A stretch of 64,000 nt of DNA, taken from NCBI GenBank assembly GCA_022059125.1, contig JAEUWY010000023.1:744001-808000 (forward strand). The letters run 5' to 3'. Position numbers and translations under genes: made by a program. The DNA is from Corynespora cassiicola. Taxonomy: Eukaryota; Ascomycota; Dothideomycetes; Pleosporales; Corynesporascaceae. Positions 39,826 to 50,917 of the stretch are shown here, piece after piece. A model generated the notes under the pieces. It was not told where the DNA came from, did not search any database, and was given only the letters and a program-made list of their open reading frames with translations. Numbering within the stretch: position 1 is the first letter of the stretch; the number at the start of each line of letters is the position of its first letter.

Positions 39826-41765
39826 CTAGTGCTCGAGAAGGCGGAGAGATCCCTGGACGACCACGTTCTCCAGGATGGAACCCGGGGGAATGTCGATGGT
39901 GGAGCCCTCGGTAGCGACAATGATGACGGTACCCTTGAGCGTGACGCCGCGGCCGAGGTTGACGGGACCGGTGATGGTCAGGTGGTCGAGCTCGACAATC
40001 TTGGGGATCGAGGGGATGCGCGACTGGAAGCTGGAAACCTTCTTGAAGTCGGAGCCGAGCTTGATCAGGGGAGCAGGGCCGAAGCGGTTGGGGTCGATGA
40101 TGAGTTGACCGTGCTGGAGCGTGTACAGATCCGACTTGACGAGCATCAGGTCAGAGCACGTCTTGACGGGCAAGAAACGCCTTCTGGGAACGTTCACACC
40201 GTGAGCGTTCTTGAAGTGACGGATGGCAGCACCGACGGCCGTCTCGAGCTGGAGGACGGAGATGTCGGCCTCTCCCTTCTTGTCGGCGGGGATCGACTTG
40301 CCGTTGGGGATGATCTCCATGGCAAGCTCGTTGTTCTCGACGACGCGCTTGACGGCCTTGAGGTCCATCCAGATGTTGTTGGTGTTGAAGTACTTGAACT
40401 TCTTGATCGACTTGAACTCGTTGACGTGCTCCTTGGGCACCTGAGCGATTTCAAGCAGACGGACGGAGCCCTCGTAGTCAATGATGGTACCACCCTTGAC
40501 GTCGGCCTTGGTCTTGTCGGTCAATTCCATGATGTACTCGGCCTTGGAGTCGACCATGTGCTGGAGAATGCGGAGGTCAACGACGGCACCCAGGTTGTCG
40601 GCGTTGGAGAGGAAGACGATCTCGATGCCACGCTCAATGAGCTTGTCGAGAATGCCAGAGTTGTAGAGCGACTCGAAGACGTCACCGTGGCCCGGAGGGT
40701 ACCAGTTGGCAATGTCGGAGTCGGCCGACTTGGGGGCGGGGAGGAGCGAGTCCTTGAGCACACGGGGGTACTTGGACTGGTTGAAGGTGAGGATGTCGAT
40801 GTTGTGGCCCTCGTACTTCTTGATGATGCTGGCCGTGTCCGAGTCGGTGTTGAACGAGTTCATAAGGACGAAGGGCACGTTGACATCGTAGGTGCGGTTG
40901 AGGTATTCGATCTGGCGGACCGAGAGGTCGAGGAAGGACATGCCGTCACGGACCTCGATGACCGACTTGGGGCCAACGCAGCCCATGGAGGTACCGAGAC
41001 CACCGTTGAGCTTGACGACGGCGAGCTTGTTCAGGTACTCGACGGCCTCGGAGTTGGCCAGGTCCTCATAGTTGACCACCTGCTCGGCCTTGGGGGGCGC
41101 GATGCGGTTCCAGTCAATGGCGTTGCCCTTGGCCTTGTCGTTCAGGTAACGACGGAAGAGAGCGAAGAAGTTGTCCATCTCCGTCTCGAAGCGCTGGCTT
41201 TTGTGAGCCGGCTAATAGCAAGCCAAAGCATGGAGGGAGCTCACCTGCTTCTCCTTGGGGTCCTTGACCGTGTCGGACAGCTTGTTGAGGGCATTGCGCA
41301 TCTGCGATGCGGCAACGTTGGTGGAGGTGTTCTCGAAGGCCTGGAGGAGTGCGGAGAGATTAGCAGGGTGCATTTGAGGCAGCGAGGCTGATGATGGTTG
41401 AGGACCATGGTGGTGGCTGGAGGAGCGGCAGTGCTGGGTGTTGTGGCTGCGGGGAGAGGGAGTGGGGGAGGCAACCAGAGAGCTCAAGGGCGGGCGGGCG
41501 GTGTGCGGCCGGCTGGAAGCACTGCCATGGCCCAGACAACAGGAGGTGGAGGGGCAATTGGACGGCTGCCTGCAGCAGACGCCCGCGGGAGCTCAAGGCA
41601 GAGTGAAGGCGAAGGTGAAGGCGGAGCCGGGGGTGCGGGCGGTGCAGGGGGAGCTCGACTTACCACATGGGACTGCGACTTTCCGTGGTGACGCTGGCTG
41701 AACTCGGCGTCTCCGCCAGCGGCGGCGGAGGGCTTGAGGTGGGAGGGGATAGCCTTGGATGCCAT
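39826..41765 (-). CDS. UGP1: UTP-glucose-1-phosphate uridylyltransferase
   Basis: Cytosolic enzyme making UDP-glucose from UTP and glucose 1-phosphate, the donor for beta-glucan, glycogen, trehalose and N-glycan synthesis. 521 residues, the usual length. Exons on the minus strand: 41765-41664, 41340-41245, 41193-39826; both introns phase 0. Seen: [22 protein letters not shown] start typical of ascomycete UGPases, [39 protein letters not shown], the nucleotide loop [12 protein letters not shown] at about residue 127, [30 protein letters not shown], and a left-handed beta-helix C-terminus ([18 protein letters not shown]). The second exon-3 acceptor, AGCCAG, is used because it alone keeps frame (KEKQ then RFETE). 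Intron 1 is 323 nt. Confidence 0.96.
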
Positions 41766-44762: not shown

Positions 44763-46667
44763 ATGGCTGACGCGCTGAAAGCAGAGGGCAACAAGCTCTT
44801 TGCGGAGAAGAAGTTCGCCGAGTCCATGTAGGTTCCCCGCCCCGCGTGAGGCAGAGAGCGGTCGACTGACAGCTGCGCAGCGAGAAGTTCTCCCAGGCAA
44901 TCGAAATCGACCCCACAAATCATGTCCTTTACTCGAACCGATCAGGCGCCTATGCGTCGCTGAAGGACTATGAGCATGCGCTCGAGGACGCGAACAAGGT
45001 GGTGGAGATCAAGCCCGACTGGTCCAAGGGCTGGGGCCGTAAGGGAACTGCGCTGCATGGCGCTGGCGATCTCGGTAGAGTCACACGGTCCTGTCCCAGA
45101 ATTTCTCAAGCTAACTCGGTGCAGTGGGAGCCACGGACGCCTTTGAAGAGGCCGTCAAACTCGACCCCAAGAACGCCCAGGCACAATCCGGCCTGAATGC
45201 TGTTAAGCGCGCCATTGAACAGGAGGCGAGAGCTGACGGCCTGGGAGGTGACCCCTCTGGTGGCCTCGGCAGCATGTTCAACGACCCCAACATGATCCAG
45301 AAGCTTGCCAGCAACCCGAAGACAGCATCCCTCCTCGCAGATCCCGAGTTCATGGGCAAGCTCCAGCGCCTAAAGTCTAACCCGAACGATATTGGCCGCG
45401 AGATGCAGGACCCGAGGTTTCTGCAGGTCATGAGTGTACTGCTAGGCATTGACATGCAATTCGGTGCACCACCCGGTGCCGGAGAGCAGGCTAGCGGTGC
45501 CAGGGAGGCTGAGGAAGACGTTGAGATGCCTGACGCCAAGCCTGCACAGCAAGAGGCGCCCAAGAAGGAGCCTGAACCTGAGCCAGAGCCAGAGGAGGAG
45601 ACCGAGGAGGCCAAGGCAGCAAAGGAGGCCAAGGCCAAGGCTGATGAGTTGAAGAAGAAGGGTACCGAGTTCTACAAGAAGCGCCAGTTCGACGAAGCCA
45701 TCCAGCACTATACTAAGGCATGGGAAACTCACAAGGACATCACCTACATGACCAACTTGGGAGCTGCCAAGTTTGAGAAAGGTGATTACGAGGGCTGTAT
45801 CGAGGCCTGCAAGCAGGCTGTCGAGTATGGACGCGAGATTCTTGCCGATTTCAAGATGATTGCAAAGGCCTTTGCTCGTATTGGAACTTCGTACGAGAAG
45901 CTTGACGACCTCCCGAACGCCATCCTCTACTACCAAAAGGCCCAGACTGAGCACCGTACCCCTGAGGTGCTTACCAAGCTGCGCAACGCTGAGAAGCTCC
46001 TGGCCAAGCGAGAGAAGGAATCATACATCAACCCTGAGGAAGCGGAGAAGGCTCGCGAGCTTGGTAACGCCAAGTTCAAGGAGGCGGATTGGCCTGGAGC
46101 CGTCGAGGCATACTCTGAGATGATCAAGCGCGCGCCTGACGATCCTCGTGGTTACTCTAACCGTGCTGCCTGCTTCATCAAGCTGCTTGGTTTCCCTTCT
46201 GCGGTCCAGGACTGCGACGAGGCCATCAAGCGTGACCCCAAGTTCATCCGCGCATACCTGCGCAAGGCCCAGGCCTACTTTGCTATGAGGGAATACAGCA
46301 AATGTATCGATACTTGCGCAGAGGCTACCGAGCACGACGAGGGTGGTAAGAACGCCCGTGAGATCCAGGCGCAGGAGAGCAAGGCCATTCAGGCGCAGTA
46401 CAGCGCACGTGAGGGTGAGACGGAGGAGCAGACCATGGAGCGTATCCAGCGCGACCCAGAGGTATGGCAGCTTTGTGTTGACATTTCCAGAGAGATGTTG
46501 CTAATCATGTACAGATTGTCGGCATTCTTCAAGACCCCGTCATGCAGAGCATTCTGCAGCAAGCCAAGGAGGATCCTGCGGCACTGCAGGATCATCTCAA
46601 GAACACTCAGATCCGCCAGAAGATCCAGAAACTGGTACACGCTGGTGTGATTCGCATGGGACGATAG
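44763..46667 (+). CDS. STI1: Hsp70/Hsp90 organising co-chaperone Sti1 (Hop)
   Basis: Cytosolic scaffold that hands clients from Hsp70 to Hsp90. 582 residues, the normal size. Exons: 44763-44827, 44881-45074, 45125-46461, 46515-46667, all in frame. In order: TPR1 ([26 protein letters not shown], residues ~3-105), a first STI1/DP repeat ([30 protein letters not shown]), an acidic Pro/Glu linker, TPR2A ([26 protein letters not shown]), TPR2B ([25 protein letters not shown]) and a C-terminal DP2 with [16 protein letters not shown], ending in AGVIRMGR as in other Sti1 proteins. The carboxylate-clamp Lys/Asn/Arg positions ([23 protein letters not shown]) are visible. Confidence 0.96.
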
Positions 46668-48004: not shown

Positions 48005-48451
48005 GGTTGGACTATGCCATCTTGCGGTGGGTGGTGATGCAGTGTGTGCATGTGTGCGCAGTGTGGTGATGGTGGTGATGCGGGTACATTTGGAGTTTTG
48101 GCATGGGAAAAAGGGTGTGTTTGAGCGTCTTCATTTTTTTTTGTCTGTGGTCATATTCCCCATTTTCGAGCTCAGGGCCCATGGTAGTAGGGCCTGTGGA
48201 AGCTACGGTTGACGAGTTCTTTCTCTTGATTTCATGGTCCCGCGCCAGACCGAGAACATGTGGGGCGCCGGAAGCGTCCGTGCAATTCCCACTCAGGCAC
48301 GGCAGGAAAAAAAATTCCTGAGGCCGCGCAGAAAAAATTTTGGGTTGGGATGCCACAGCACCAAATCTGAGAGTTTATTATTGCAATGTAATAATGTTCC
48401 CTGTATATATACGATATTGGGGAACTTGTTTTCATCAAATCAGTGTAACAA
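48005..48451. other. Intergenic between bZIP gene and tRNA gene
   Basis: 447 bp; G/T-rich at first (bZIP 3' flank), later AT-rich just upstream of the tRNA. No gene seen. Confidence 0.6.
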
Positions 48452-48488
48452 GCCTGGTTAGCTCAATCGGTAGAGCGTGAGACTCTTA

Positions 48489-48504
48489 CACTCCATAAGA
48501 GGTT
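48489..48504 (+). other. Canonical tRNA intron (between positions 37 and 38)
   Basis: 16 nt, placed one base 3' of the anticodon as in all nuclear tRNA introns. It contains TAAGAG, which can pair with CTCTTA of the anticodon loop, the usual pre-tRNA structure read by the tRNA splicing endonuclease. Confidence 0.85.
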
Positions 48505-48520
48505 ATCTCAAGGCTGCGGG

Positions 48521-48571
48521 GTACGATTCTCTCCTCCTCCATCATTAAAACTCATTCTAACAATTTCACAG
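48521..48571 (+). other. Spliceosomal-intron-like insert in the tRNA T arm
   Basis: 51 nt between T-stem base 53 and T-loop base 54. It begins GTACGA, has a pyrimidine run CTCTCCTCCTCC, a branch-like TCTAAC 14 nt before the end and finishes CACAG. These are the same signals and length as the mRNA introns of neighbouring genes. The boundary is ambiguous by one G, which does not change the joined product. See findings. Confidence 0.75.
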
Positions 48572-48591
48572 TTCGAGCCCCGCATCGGGCT

Positions 48592-50917
48592 TTCAAAGCA
48601 TTCGATCACATTCTTTTTTTGCATATTTATCCTAACGTGCAGACCTATGGTGGATGCATTGCATCGAACTTTGCCAGTATAATGACACTTTTTTTTTTTG
48701 CCATTGCGCCATCCTCGAATCTTTCAGGGCCCACGCCGGGTTTTTGTTGGGTCCTATATAGATGTCACACATCTAGTGAGAATGCTTAATGTTATGCGGA
48801 ATTTATTTTTTTGGCGTGGAAAATAATGCTGGGTAGTGAAAGTAATCTAGCAGACTTGTAAGAACAGCGATTCCATGAGCCGCTGGTTTGGAATATGATT
48901 TACGCCAAAACGCATACATATATACAAAGACATGCATGCATCCTTGAGAATTAAAAACTTCACCTAATCTCTATTTATGAGCTGAATAACTGCCTCTTAA
49001 CAGAATCTCCCACTTAGATACCTCGACCGGGCTAGCCTTTGGCTTCATTCGAGGTGAGGATGGGTATCATCTGCTGCTTCTGGCACTATGATATAGATTG
49101 GATGTCACGATAGATCCACAAAGGCAGGTAGCATACCTATCTCCCGTGCAACTACAAAACCCATCATAGTTGTCGACAGGCAAGCATAGAAAGAGCCAAT
49201 CATCTAGAGGAAAAACTCGGGGATCCTCGCAGATTAAATCAGCTATACTTCATTGTATAGTACTACAAACCCCAAGTACGATATTACAGAAAGAAAGAAG
49301 TGGTCTCAATATGGACCAGCTGTGTGGCCCGTGCACGGGACCTGGAGCTGTACCGGCTCAGAATACTTGCTTTGTAGGACGTCCTATCGCTAATTATAGG
49401 GATTGTAAGTTTTGTAGCATCTTTAGGACATGATGGACTCTAAAAAATTAATTGTTGTAGCCATTATTAGGTTTGATGGACATCCTGCACTTTGAAAGAT
49501 GTGCTCAAATTTCTAAACGCTCACAAATCTTTGAAAAATCATACCTCAACCCCCTTATAGCATTGAGCCCCAGAACTTTCTATCTCCACTATTTTAACCA
49601 TACTAGATGATAAAATGGCATTGGAATATCATTCCTGTATTAATTTCTTTGGTGATTGCAGATCCAGAGGTCTTGCAAAAAGGCTCGGTAGCGTATTGAG
49701 CAACGTTGAGGTGCACCACAGAATATCAGTTTTAAATATCCTATTGATTTTACCATTTGTCATATAAAAAACTATAAGATTAAGAGAGATACCCAAAGAT
49801 CTCAACTCCACGTATTCAATTCCAGCAACACGCAGGAGAGAATGCATTACTGATCAAAGTCAATCAATACCGCACGCACGCACACCCCCTCTACCCTCCC
49901 ACAATTCTCATTACCCCAAAACTTAAACCCAAGGCCTGCACTAACGGAGAACTGAGTCAAAAATCGGACCAAAGGTATCGCGTGACTCCATCTCACAGCA
50001 CCGTATCTACCCACCCTCTCACCACATGGCACCAGAATCCAAATCAACGTCAAACGCCCACCCCCGATCCCACCCAACACCAGCTTAAACCGATTTTCAA
50101 AGCGCTCGCTTATCGCGCCAGACCCCCCCCCAGGCCCCAATCCTCCTTCAGGCGGGACTGGGATGGCGAGATTAGCGAGAGCCTCGCCCGCTCCCTTCGC
50201 TGCCTGCCGCCTCCAGACCTGCAGTCTCTGAAAAATCGGCATTCTCGGCGAACGTTGGCGTTGGTCAAGACACGATAAGGAACAATATTGGGCGGTGTGG
50301 GAGTAAGTTTGCGGGACCGTCTATTTGGGTACGGCGTACTGCAGTATGGTGCGGCGAGGGCGTCCAGCGTTGCCGAGGTGTGGCGGCCTAGTGGTGACCT
50401 CTGGTGATCCAGACGAGTGTGGCTGATACAATCTCTCAGCGAAGCTTTCTGTCAGTGATTTCTCGTAGTCATGTCAATCCATCCCGCGTTTTGTGGTGAC
50501 CTGGTTTGCGGTCGGGTTGTGGGGGTAGAGGGAGAGGGTTGGTAATCACCTAGGTGTTGGAGGGCCTGTTGTATAAGCTTTGCGGTTTGTGGGTAATGTT
50601 CATGCGCTGTCGGGCGCTTCTGACCCGAAACATTGACGTAGATGTAGAGTAAATCGGATTGGAGGCTTTGAGGCGGTGTAGAACGAACGCTATTGCCAGA
50701 TCCTAGGAGATGATTCTCCGAGGGCTAAAAGGTCTGATGTTGACTTGAATCGCGGAGCACGGAATGTCAGTTCGATTCATGGTCCTGCAGGAAGCAGGGT
50801 GTGAAAAATAGGAATGCTTGCTTTTGCCTCTGGTGTGTATACAGCCATGCTCTTATCCGACATTTATACATTAGACAATGTTATCAGTACGCTTCTCCCA
50901 CGCCACCCTCCTTTCAT
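48592..50917. other. 2.3 kb AT-rich stretch without a recognisable gene
   Basis: AT-rich up to about 49,850 and more mixed after that. Only short frames, none with a domain I can defend. It could hold eroded mobile-element sequence, but I see no terminal repeats, reverse transcriptase or transposase motif. Confidence 0.5.
48614..48620 (+). terminator. Likely Pol III terminator of the tRNA gene
   Basis: Run of seven T about 23 nt after the tRNA 3' end. The TTT directly after the gene is too short to stop fungal Pol III well. Confidence 0.6.

Follow-up and report, generated by a model that had tools for sequence, protein, structure and literature searches.

In this work, we describe nuclear tRNA genes of a filamentous fungus that are interrupted within the T arm by an insert bearing the signals of a spliceosomal intron. 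The insert lies between tRNA bases 53 and 54 in at least 12 genes, namely six of the seven tRNA-Lys(CTT), three of the five tRNA-Ile(AAT) and all three tRNA-His(GTG) genes found, and nine of these 12 (the interrupted Lys and Ile genes) hold a second, anticodon intron in the same RNA. These are very probably working nuclear tRNA genes, transcribed by Pol III, from which the spliceosome would take out the U2-type intron at 53/54, the tRNA endonuclease acting afterwards on the anticodon intron. The cloverleaf, the splice signals, the shared position, the conserved exons with their diverged introns, the promoter boxes and the terminator are read from the sequence, and splicing is what we infer from them.

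One of the Lys genes lies in the window, i.e. the whole stretch of 64,000 nucleotides that was analyzed (C23:744001-808000, from an assembly of 44.35 Mb in 23 contigs). It occupies positions 48452-48591 of the plus strand, on which all the elements given here are also found, and spans tRNA bases 1-73, base 73 being the T at 48591. Its 5' part (48452-48520) contains the A box TAGCTCAATCGG (48459-48470) and, at 37/38, an anticodon intron of the ordinary kind (16 nt, 48489-48504), in which AAGAG is able to pair with CTCTT of the anticodon loop. The T-arm intron follows (51 nt, 48521-48571, bases 53/54), with the 5' splice site GTACGA at 48521-48526, the branch-site element CTAAC in the context TTCTAAC at 48557-48561, 10 nt from there to the intron end, and the 3' splice site CAG in the context CACAG at 48569-48571. 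The 3' exon (48572-48591) supplies the T loop, the 3' strands of the T stem and the acceptor stem, and base 73. The B box AGTTCGAGCCC (48570-48580) straddles the 3' junction, its first two bases being the last two of the T-arm intron. Upstream by 40-50 bp, TATATATA (48404-48411) is a candidate Pol III TATA element, a role suggested by its position only, and downstream a Pol III terminator, ATTCTTTTTTTGC (48610-48622), has a form that recurs after several of the genome's ordinary tRNA genes.

The first-pass annotation had proposed that a Lys(CTT) cloverleaf appears here only after two segments are removed, one a 16-nt anticodon intron and the other a 51-nt insert placed exactly between bases 53 and 54 and running from GTACGA through TCTAAC to CACAG; all of these elements were found where it had put them. 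With the T-arm insert in place, the raw window gave no tRNA by ARAGORN and no Rfam match at gathering thresholds, and after removal of 48521-48571 ARAGORN called a tRNA-Lys(CTT) with a 16-nt anticodon intron. The insert is a real feature of this gene, and a wider one than had at first been noted.

The extent of the set was established by several genome searches. The 251 bases around the window gene, used as a query, matched eight places in the genome, one of which is the decayed fragment L008 described below. The 36-nt 5' exon of the Lys gene, with up to three mismatches allowed, has seven matches, all of them perfect, and when the tRNA-Lys(CTT) copies of this genome were compared with one another, as the annotation had suggested, one of the seven stood out as free of the T-arm insert. 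The 38-nt Ile 5' exon, searched with the same tolerance, is likewise perfect in all five copies, three of which carry the insert, and none of the three interrupted His genes has an anticodon intron. The Ile and His cases surfaced on reading 56 of the 65 matches of a pattern in which AGTTCGANNCC comes after a branch site, identical surroundings being shown once. Altogether, three patterns for T-arm introns in further isotypes gave 65, 28 and 40 matches in the genome versus 133, 37 and 40 in the reversed control, i.e. totals without excess. The 28- and 40-match patterns include all 12 tRNA genes and the 65-match pattern 11 of them, since its TTCGA is fixed and it therefore misses one Ile gene (TTCAAAC). 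Beyond the 12, two of the 16 further matches of the 28-match pattern and a minority of the 28 further matches of the 40-match pattern were read, so that the 12 interrupted genes are a lower bound drawn from the part of the pattern matches read in context. A B-box pattern for listing intact tRNAs gave 233 matches versus 320 in its control. Outside this genome, a search for relatives gave no match in bacterial and archaeal contigs and none in viral contigs.

Once their exons were joined, all 15 genes (12 with and three without the T-arm intron) were named by ARAGORN as expected; unspliced, none of the 12 was. A genome-wide search with the Rfam tRNA model lists one of the 12, a Lys gene at C20:2011409-2011548 with 36.7 bits, among the 63 of 1206 candidates that were scored. 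Anticodon introns are common in this genome: of 30 distinct ARAGORN entries in the examined loci, 16 have a flagged intron of 11-32 nt. One entry (L018), called as tRNA-Ala, matches a Thr gene (L023) almost exactly, and its name is probably wrong.

Two of the loci contain tRNA genes in close succession. On contig C6 (L092, C6:1321000-1326000), the minus strand carries a head-to-tail pair of tRNA-Lys(CTT) genes, both with a T-arm intron, that start at C6:1323236 and C6:1323083. Some 20 bp, free of any T-run, separate the two genes, which may form one dicistronic transcript. On contig C20, a tRNA-Ile(AAT) gene that lacks the T-arm intron and another that has it start at C20:1493937 and C20:1494058 (L098/L099), about 30 bp apart and also with no T-run between, and this pair is possibly dicistronic as well.

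All 12 T-arm inserts share the position 53/54, a length of 48-59 nt and the signature GTRNG...CTRAC...YAG. They start with GTACG (five), GTAGG (three), GTAAG (three) or GTATG (one), their branch element is CTAAC in 11 and CTGAC in one, the branch A lying 10-14 nt from the 3' end of the intron, and their last three bases are CAG (eight) or TAG (four). The 5' GTRNG of U2-type introns is therefore present in every one of them, as are CTRAC and the final YAG. By comparison, among random segments of the window with the same lengths the full signature turned up in one of 200,000, and among length-matched GT...AG segments of the window in nine of 4,471, true introns being left among the nine; it is thus more than a chance occurrence. 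In length and signals the inserts resemble the mRNA introns of this genome, although the consensus for the latter comes from a small sample, three short introns, two of which have CTRAC. Two of the three were read between tblastn exons of the STI1 gene, whose protein shares 99% identity, across 90% of the query, with a protein of Corynespora cassiicola strain Philippines and points to that species (Pleosporales, Dothideomycetes) as the probable host: one at 44828-44880 (GTAGGT...GACTGACAGCTGCGCAG, with CTGAC and GCAG, 53 nt) and the other at 45075-45124 (GTAGAG...GCTAACTCGGTGCAG, with CTAAC and GCAG, 50 nt). The third, in UGP1 (41194-41244, GTGAGC...CTCAC...CCAG, 51 nt), is without CTRAC. The likeness to mRNA signals that the annotation had pointed out thus holds for the two STI1 introns, within this small sample. 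An intron pattern applied to the window gave 12 matches of 45-57 nt, the T-arm intron of tRNA-Lys among them, versus 3.6 on average and at most 10 in 60 shuffles, and some of the 12 may be due to chance. A derivation of the Lys intron from a duplication of the T arm was also considered, as GGTACGATTC resembles a B box, and was set aside, the Ile and His introns bearing no such likeness.

The host genes look intact. Within each isotype, exons are 96-100% identical, T-arm introns 57-90% and anticodon introns 53-93%. The acceptor stem is paired at seven of seven positions in all 12 interrupted genes, and the T stem, read across the intron, at five of five in 11 of them and at four of five in one Ile copy, which has a T-T mismatch at 50:64. 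At pair 49:65, the two Ile genes without the intron have A-T and the three with the intron G-C, a change that may be a single event inherited by the three genes. A box, B box and a T-run terminator, as expected of Pol III genes, are present, with a run of seven or eight Ts within 30 bp downstream in 11 of the 12, the twelfth being the first of a tandem pair. Furthermore, AAGAG is kept in the anticodon intron of all seven Lys copies, which is what a target of the tRNA endonuclease should show.

These observations bear directly on the explanation that the interrupted copies are dead tRNA pseudogenes, which we regard as very unlikely. The annotation had linked a pseudogene reading to a lack of spliced reads alongside an intact Lys(CTT) copy elsewhere and decay of the window copy in related strains; the intact copy does exist, as do two intron-free Ile copies, but no decay was seen in the window gene itself. 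A general precedent also speaks for this explanation, as D- and T-arm insertions in eukaryotes are described, in section 5 of PMC4090602, as affecting mostly one of many synonymous genes, supposed to be pseudogenes. Moreover, a decayed tRNA-Lys fragment is present in this genome (L008, C1:1672212-1672308, minus strand), left outside our counts, with many changes and no recognizable 3' exon, and it gives a picture of what a dead Lys copy looks like here. The insert is, however, found in six of the seven Lys and in all the His genes found, and not in one gene among many; the 5' exons are perfect in every Lys and Ile copy while the introns diverge; and the splice signals and stem pairing have been kept, with neither lost cloverleaf pairing nor exon decay in the interrupted genes.

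It is also conceivable that the tRNA splicing endonuclease cuts out the insert, working at a non-canonical site as it does in the red alga Cyanidioschyzon merolae, in which case the mRNA-like signals would be incidental. We consider this improbable. In its favor, an intron of the C. merolae tRNA-Ile(UAU) likewise lies at 53/54, according to the part of PMC9602550 at hand, and on contig C6 bases 4-7 of the intron (CGAA or TGAA) in each of the three Lys copies are able to form four of four pairs with the T-loop TTCG. In the other nine T-arm introns, however, the best shifted pairing reaches three of four, and in the strict bulge-helix-bulge register two of four pairs are formed in the nine Lys and Ile introns, three of four in the three His introns and all four in none of the 12. 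By eye, the shifted Lys pairing does not produce a pair of offset bulges but an internal loop adjoining the T stem, so that the ectopic form of the motif, two 3-nt bulges around a 4-bp helix, was not found in the 12 as a common element; what is common to all of them is the spliceosomal signature. Nor do they belong with the endonuclease introns at 37/38, which lie one base 3' of the anticodon, as every T-arm insert is at 53/54. Some other removal route, e.g. a cut-and-ligate reaction of the Ire1/Trl1 type or an undescribed nuclease, would also account for an insert outside the anticodon loop, although nothing positive points to it, and it appears to us the least likely of these explanations: CTRAC at a nearly fixed distance from YAG would be without a role there, and the predicted folds of the 12 precursors, judged by eye, have no common junction structure. 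Taken together, the 12 genes of three isotypes, with one position, the same signals, conserved exons and diverged introns, best fit the reading put forward in the first-pass annotation, that of an mRNA-type intron within a tRNA gene transcribed by Pol III.

On this reading of an mRNA-type intron, Pol III would transcribe the genes from the A and B boxes, and the spliceosome is predicted to recognize GTRNG and CTRAC in the pre-tRNA. The T-arm intron would leave as a lariat, with GGG joined to TTCGA and the T loop restored. This splicing would take place first, in the nucleus, end trimming would come next, and in the Lys and Ile precursors the tRNA endonuclease and ligase would then take out the anticodon intron. 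An intact T arm is required by the enzymes that trim the ends and by those that modify the T arm, which is why T-arm splicing should come first. The order of T-arm before anticodon splicing has a precedent as well: in C. merolae, as far as the excerpt of PMC9602550 goes, D- and T-arm introns are supposedly out before the anticodon intron, and Pus4 is inactive on precursors with a T-arm intron.

The position itself would be tolerated because the final AG of the intron completes the B box, so that transcription survives. That the B box is kept by means of the intron had been anticipated by the annotation, and the final AG does stand in the place of bases 52-53. Ordinary tRNA genes for Ser and Thr in this genome have CAGTTC at the B box, the same letters as at the T-arm 3' splice junction (window 48570-48580), and this may explain why 53/54 is the tolerated site.

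An intron-free nuclear tRNA-His gene was not found by three genome searches, and a strongly diverged or unassembled copy may still exist. Used as a genome query, the joined His tRNA matched only the three known places, each over bases 1-51 and each breaking at the T-arm junction. TTGTGG and GTTCRANNC at cloverleaf distance gave nine matches versus 16 in the control, none of them with a His anticodon stem in the matched stretches. These results suggest, at the level of gene sequence, that the mRNA splicing machine also has to finish essential tRNAs. With less assurance than we attach to the removal of the intron by the spliceosome, we lean towards the view that the spliceosome would be obligatory for tRNA in this lineage, all nuclear tRNA-His and most tRNA-Lys(CTT) having to pass through it ahead of the trimming of their ends, and the precursors of Lys and Ile tRNA going through two unrelated splicing systems one after the other. 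Against the reading of the interrupted genes as working, spliced genes weigh the one Lys and two Ile genes without a T-arm intron, which could supply those tRNAs.

tRNA and mRNA splicing are treated as separate processes; if these precursors are spliced as predicted, one RNA would be a substrate of both. If there is no intron-free tRNA-His, the spliceosome would be an essential tRNA-processing machine in this fungus, and, should it be obligatory, the capacity to translate His and Lys codons would depend on splicing capacity. Two questions would thereby become testable, namely what normally restricts the spliceosome to transcripts of Pol II, and by what route new genes acquire spliceosomal introns, the same site being used here in three isotypes. 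There is also a practical consequence: tRNA scanners can miss such genes, as ARAGORN did with all 12 unspliced sequences and Rfam with the window gene, and therefore tRNA-His may look absent in genomes of this kind.

Introns of both kinds have been described in structural RNAs of other organisms. Nuclear tRNA introns at 37/38 are also present in the Lys and Ile genes analyzed here, and the T-arm introns differ from them in position, in signals and most likely in the enzyme that removes them. Non-canonical tRNA introns of archaea are treated in PMC8450103, at least in the section consulted. C. merolae and nucleomorphs (Guillardia theta and others) resemble the present case in having non-canonical introns, with more than one in some genes; the part of PMC4090602 seen, however, describes a bulge-helix-bulge that is seemingly critical for the endonuclease in C. 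merolae, whereas the introns described here have spliceosomal signals without such a motif, and it gives 3-24 nt for the G. theta inserts versus 48-59 nt here. For spliceosomal introns or splicing in tRNA, no report was recognized among the papers listed from the openly licensed literature, judged by title and the start of the abstract, and one may exist elsewhere. In lichen-forming ascomycetes, spliceosomal introns occur in nuclear rDNA, and yeast removed them from Pol I transcripts (PMC8527467, in the portion available). Those introns are like the present ones in being spliceosomal and outside Pol II genes, in structural RNAs of ascomycetes, and unlike them in that the hosts there are Pol I rRNA genes and here Pol III tRNA genes. 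The U6 snRNA gene of Schizosaccharomyces pombe has an mRNA-type intron (Tani and Ohshima 1989, 1991, as cited in the part of PMC8917221 consulted). In the present genome, no U6 introns were found among the 48 of 2690 candidates scored, of which nine matches cover the whole model over 97-105 bases. The S. pombe case concerns one snRNA gene, whereas here a set of tRNA genes is interrupted at one fixed position and nine of the 12 contain a second intron type. Altogether, the introns described here, which interrupt at least 12 tRNA genes in the nuclear genome of a filamentous fungus and are assigned to the spliceosomal type by their sequence signals, join two known kinds.
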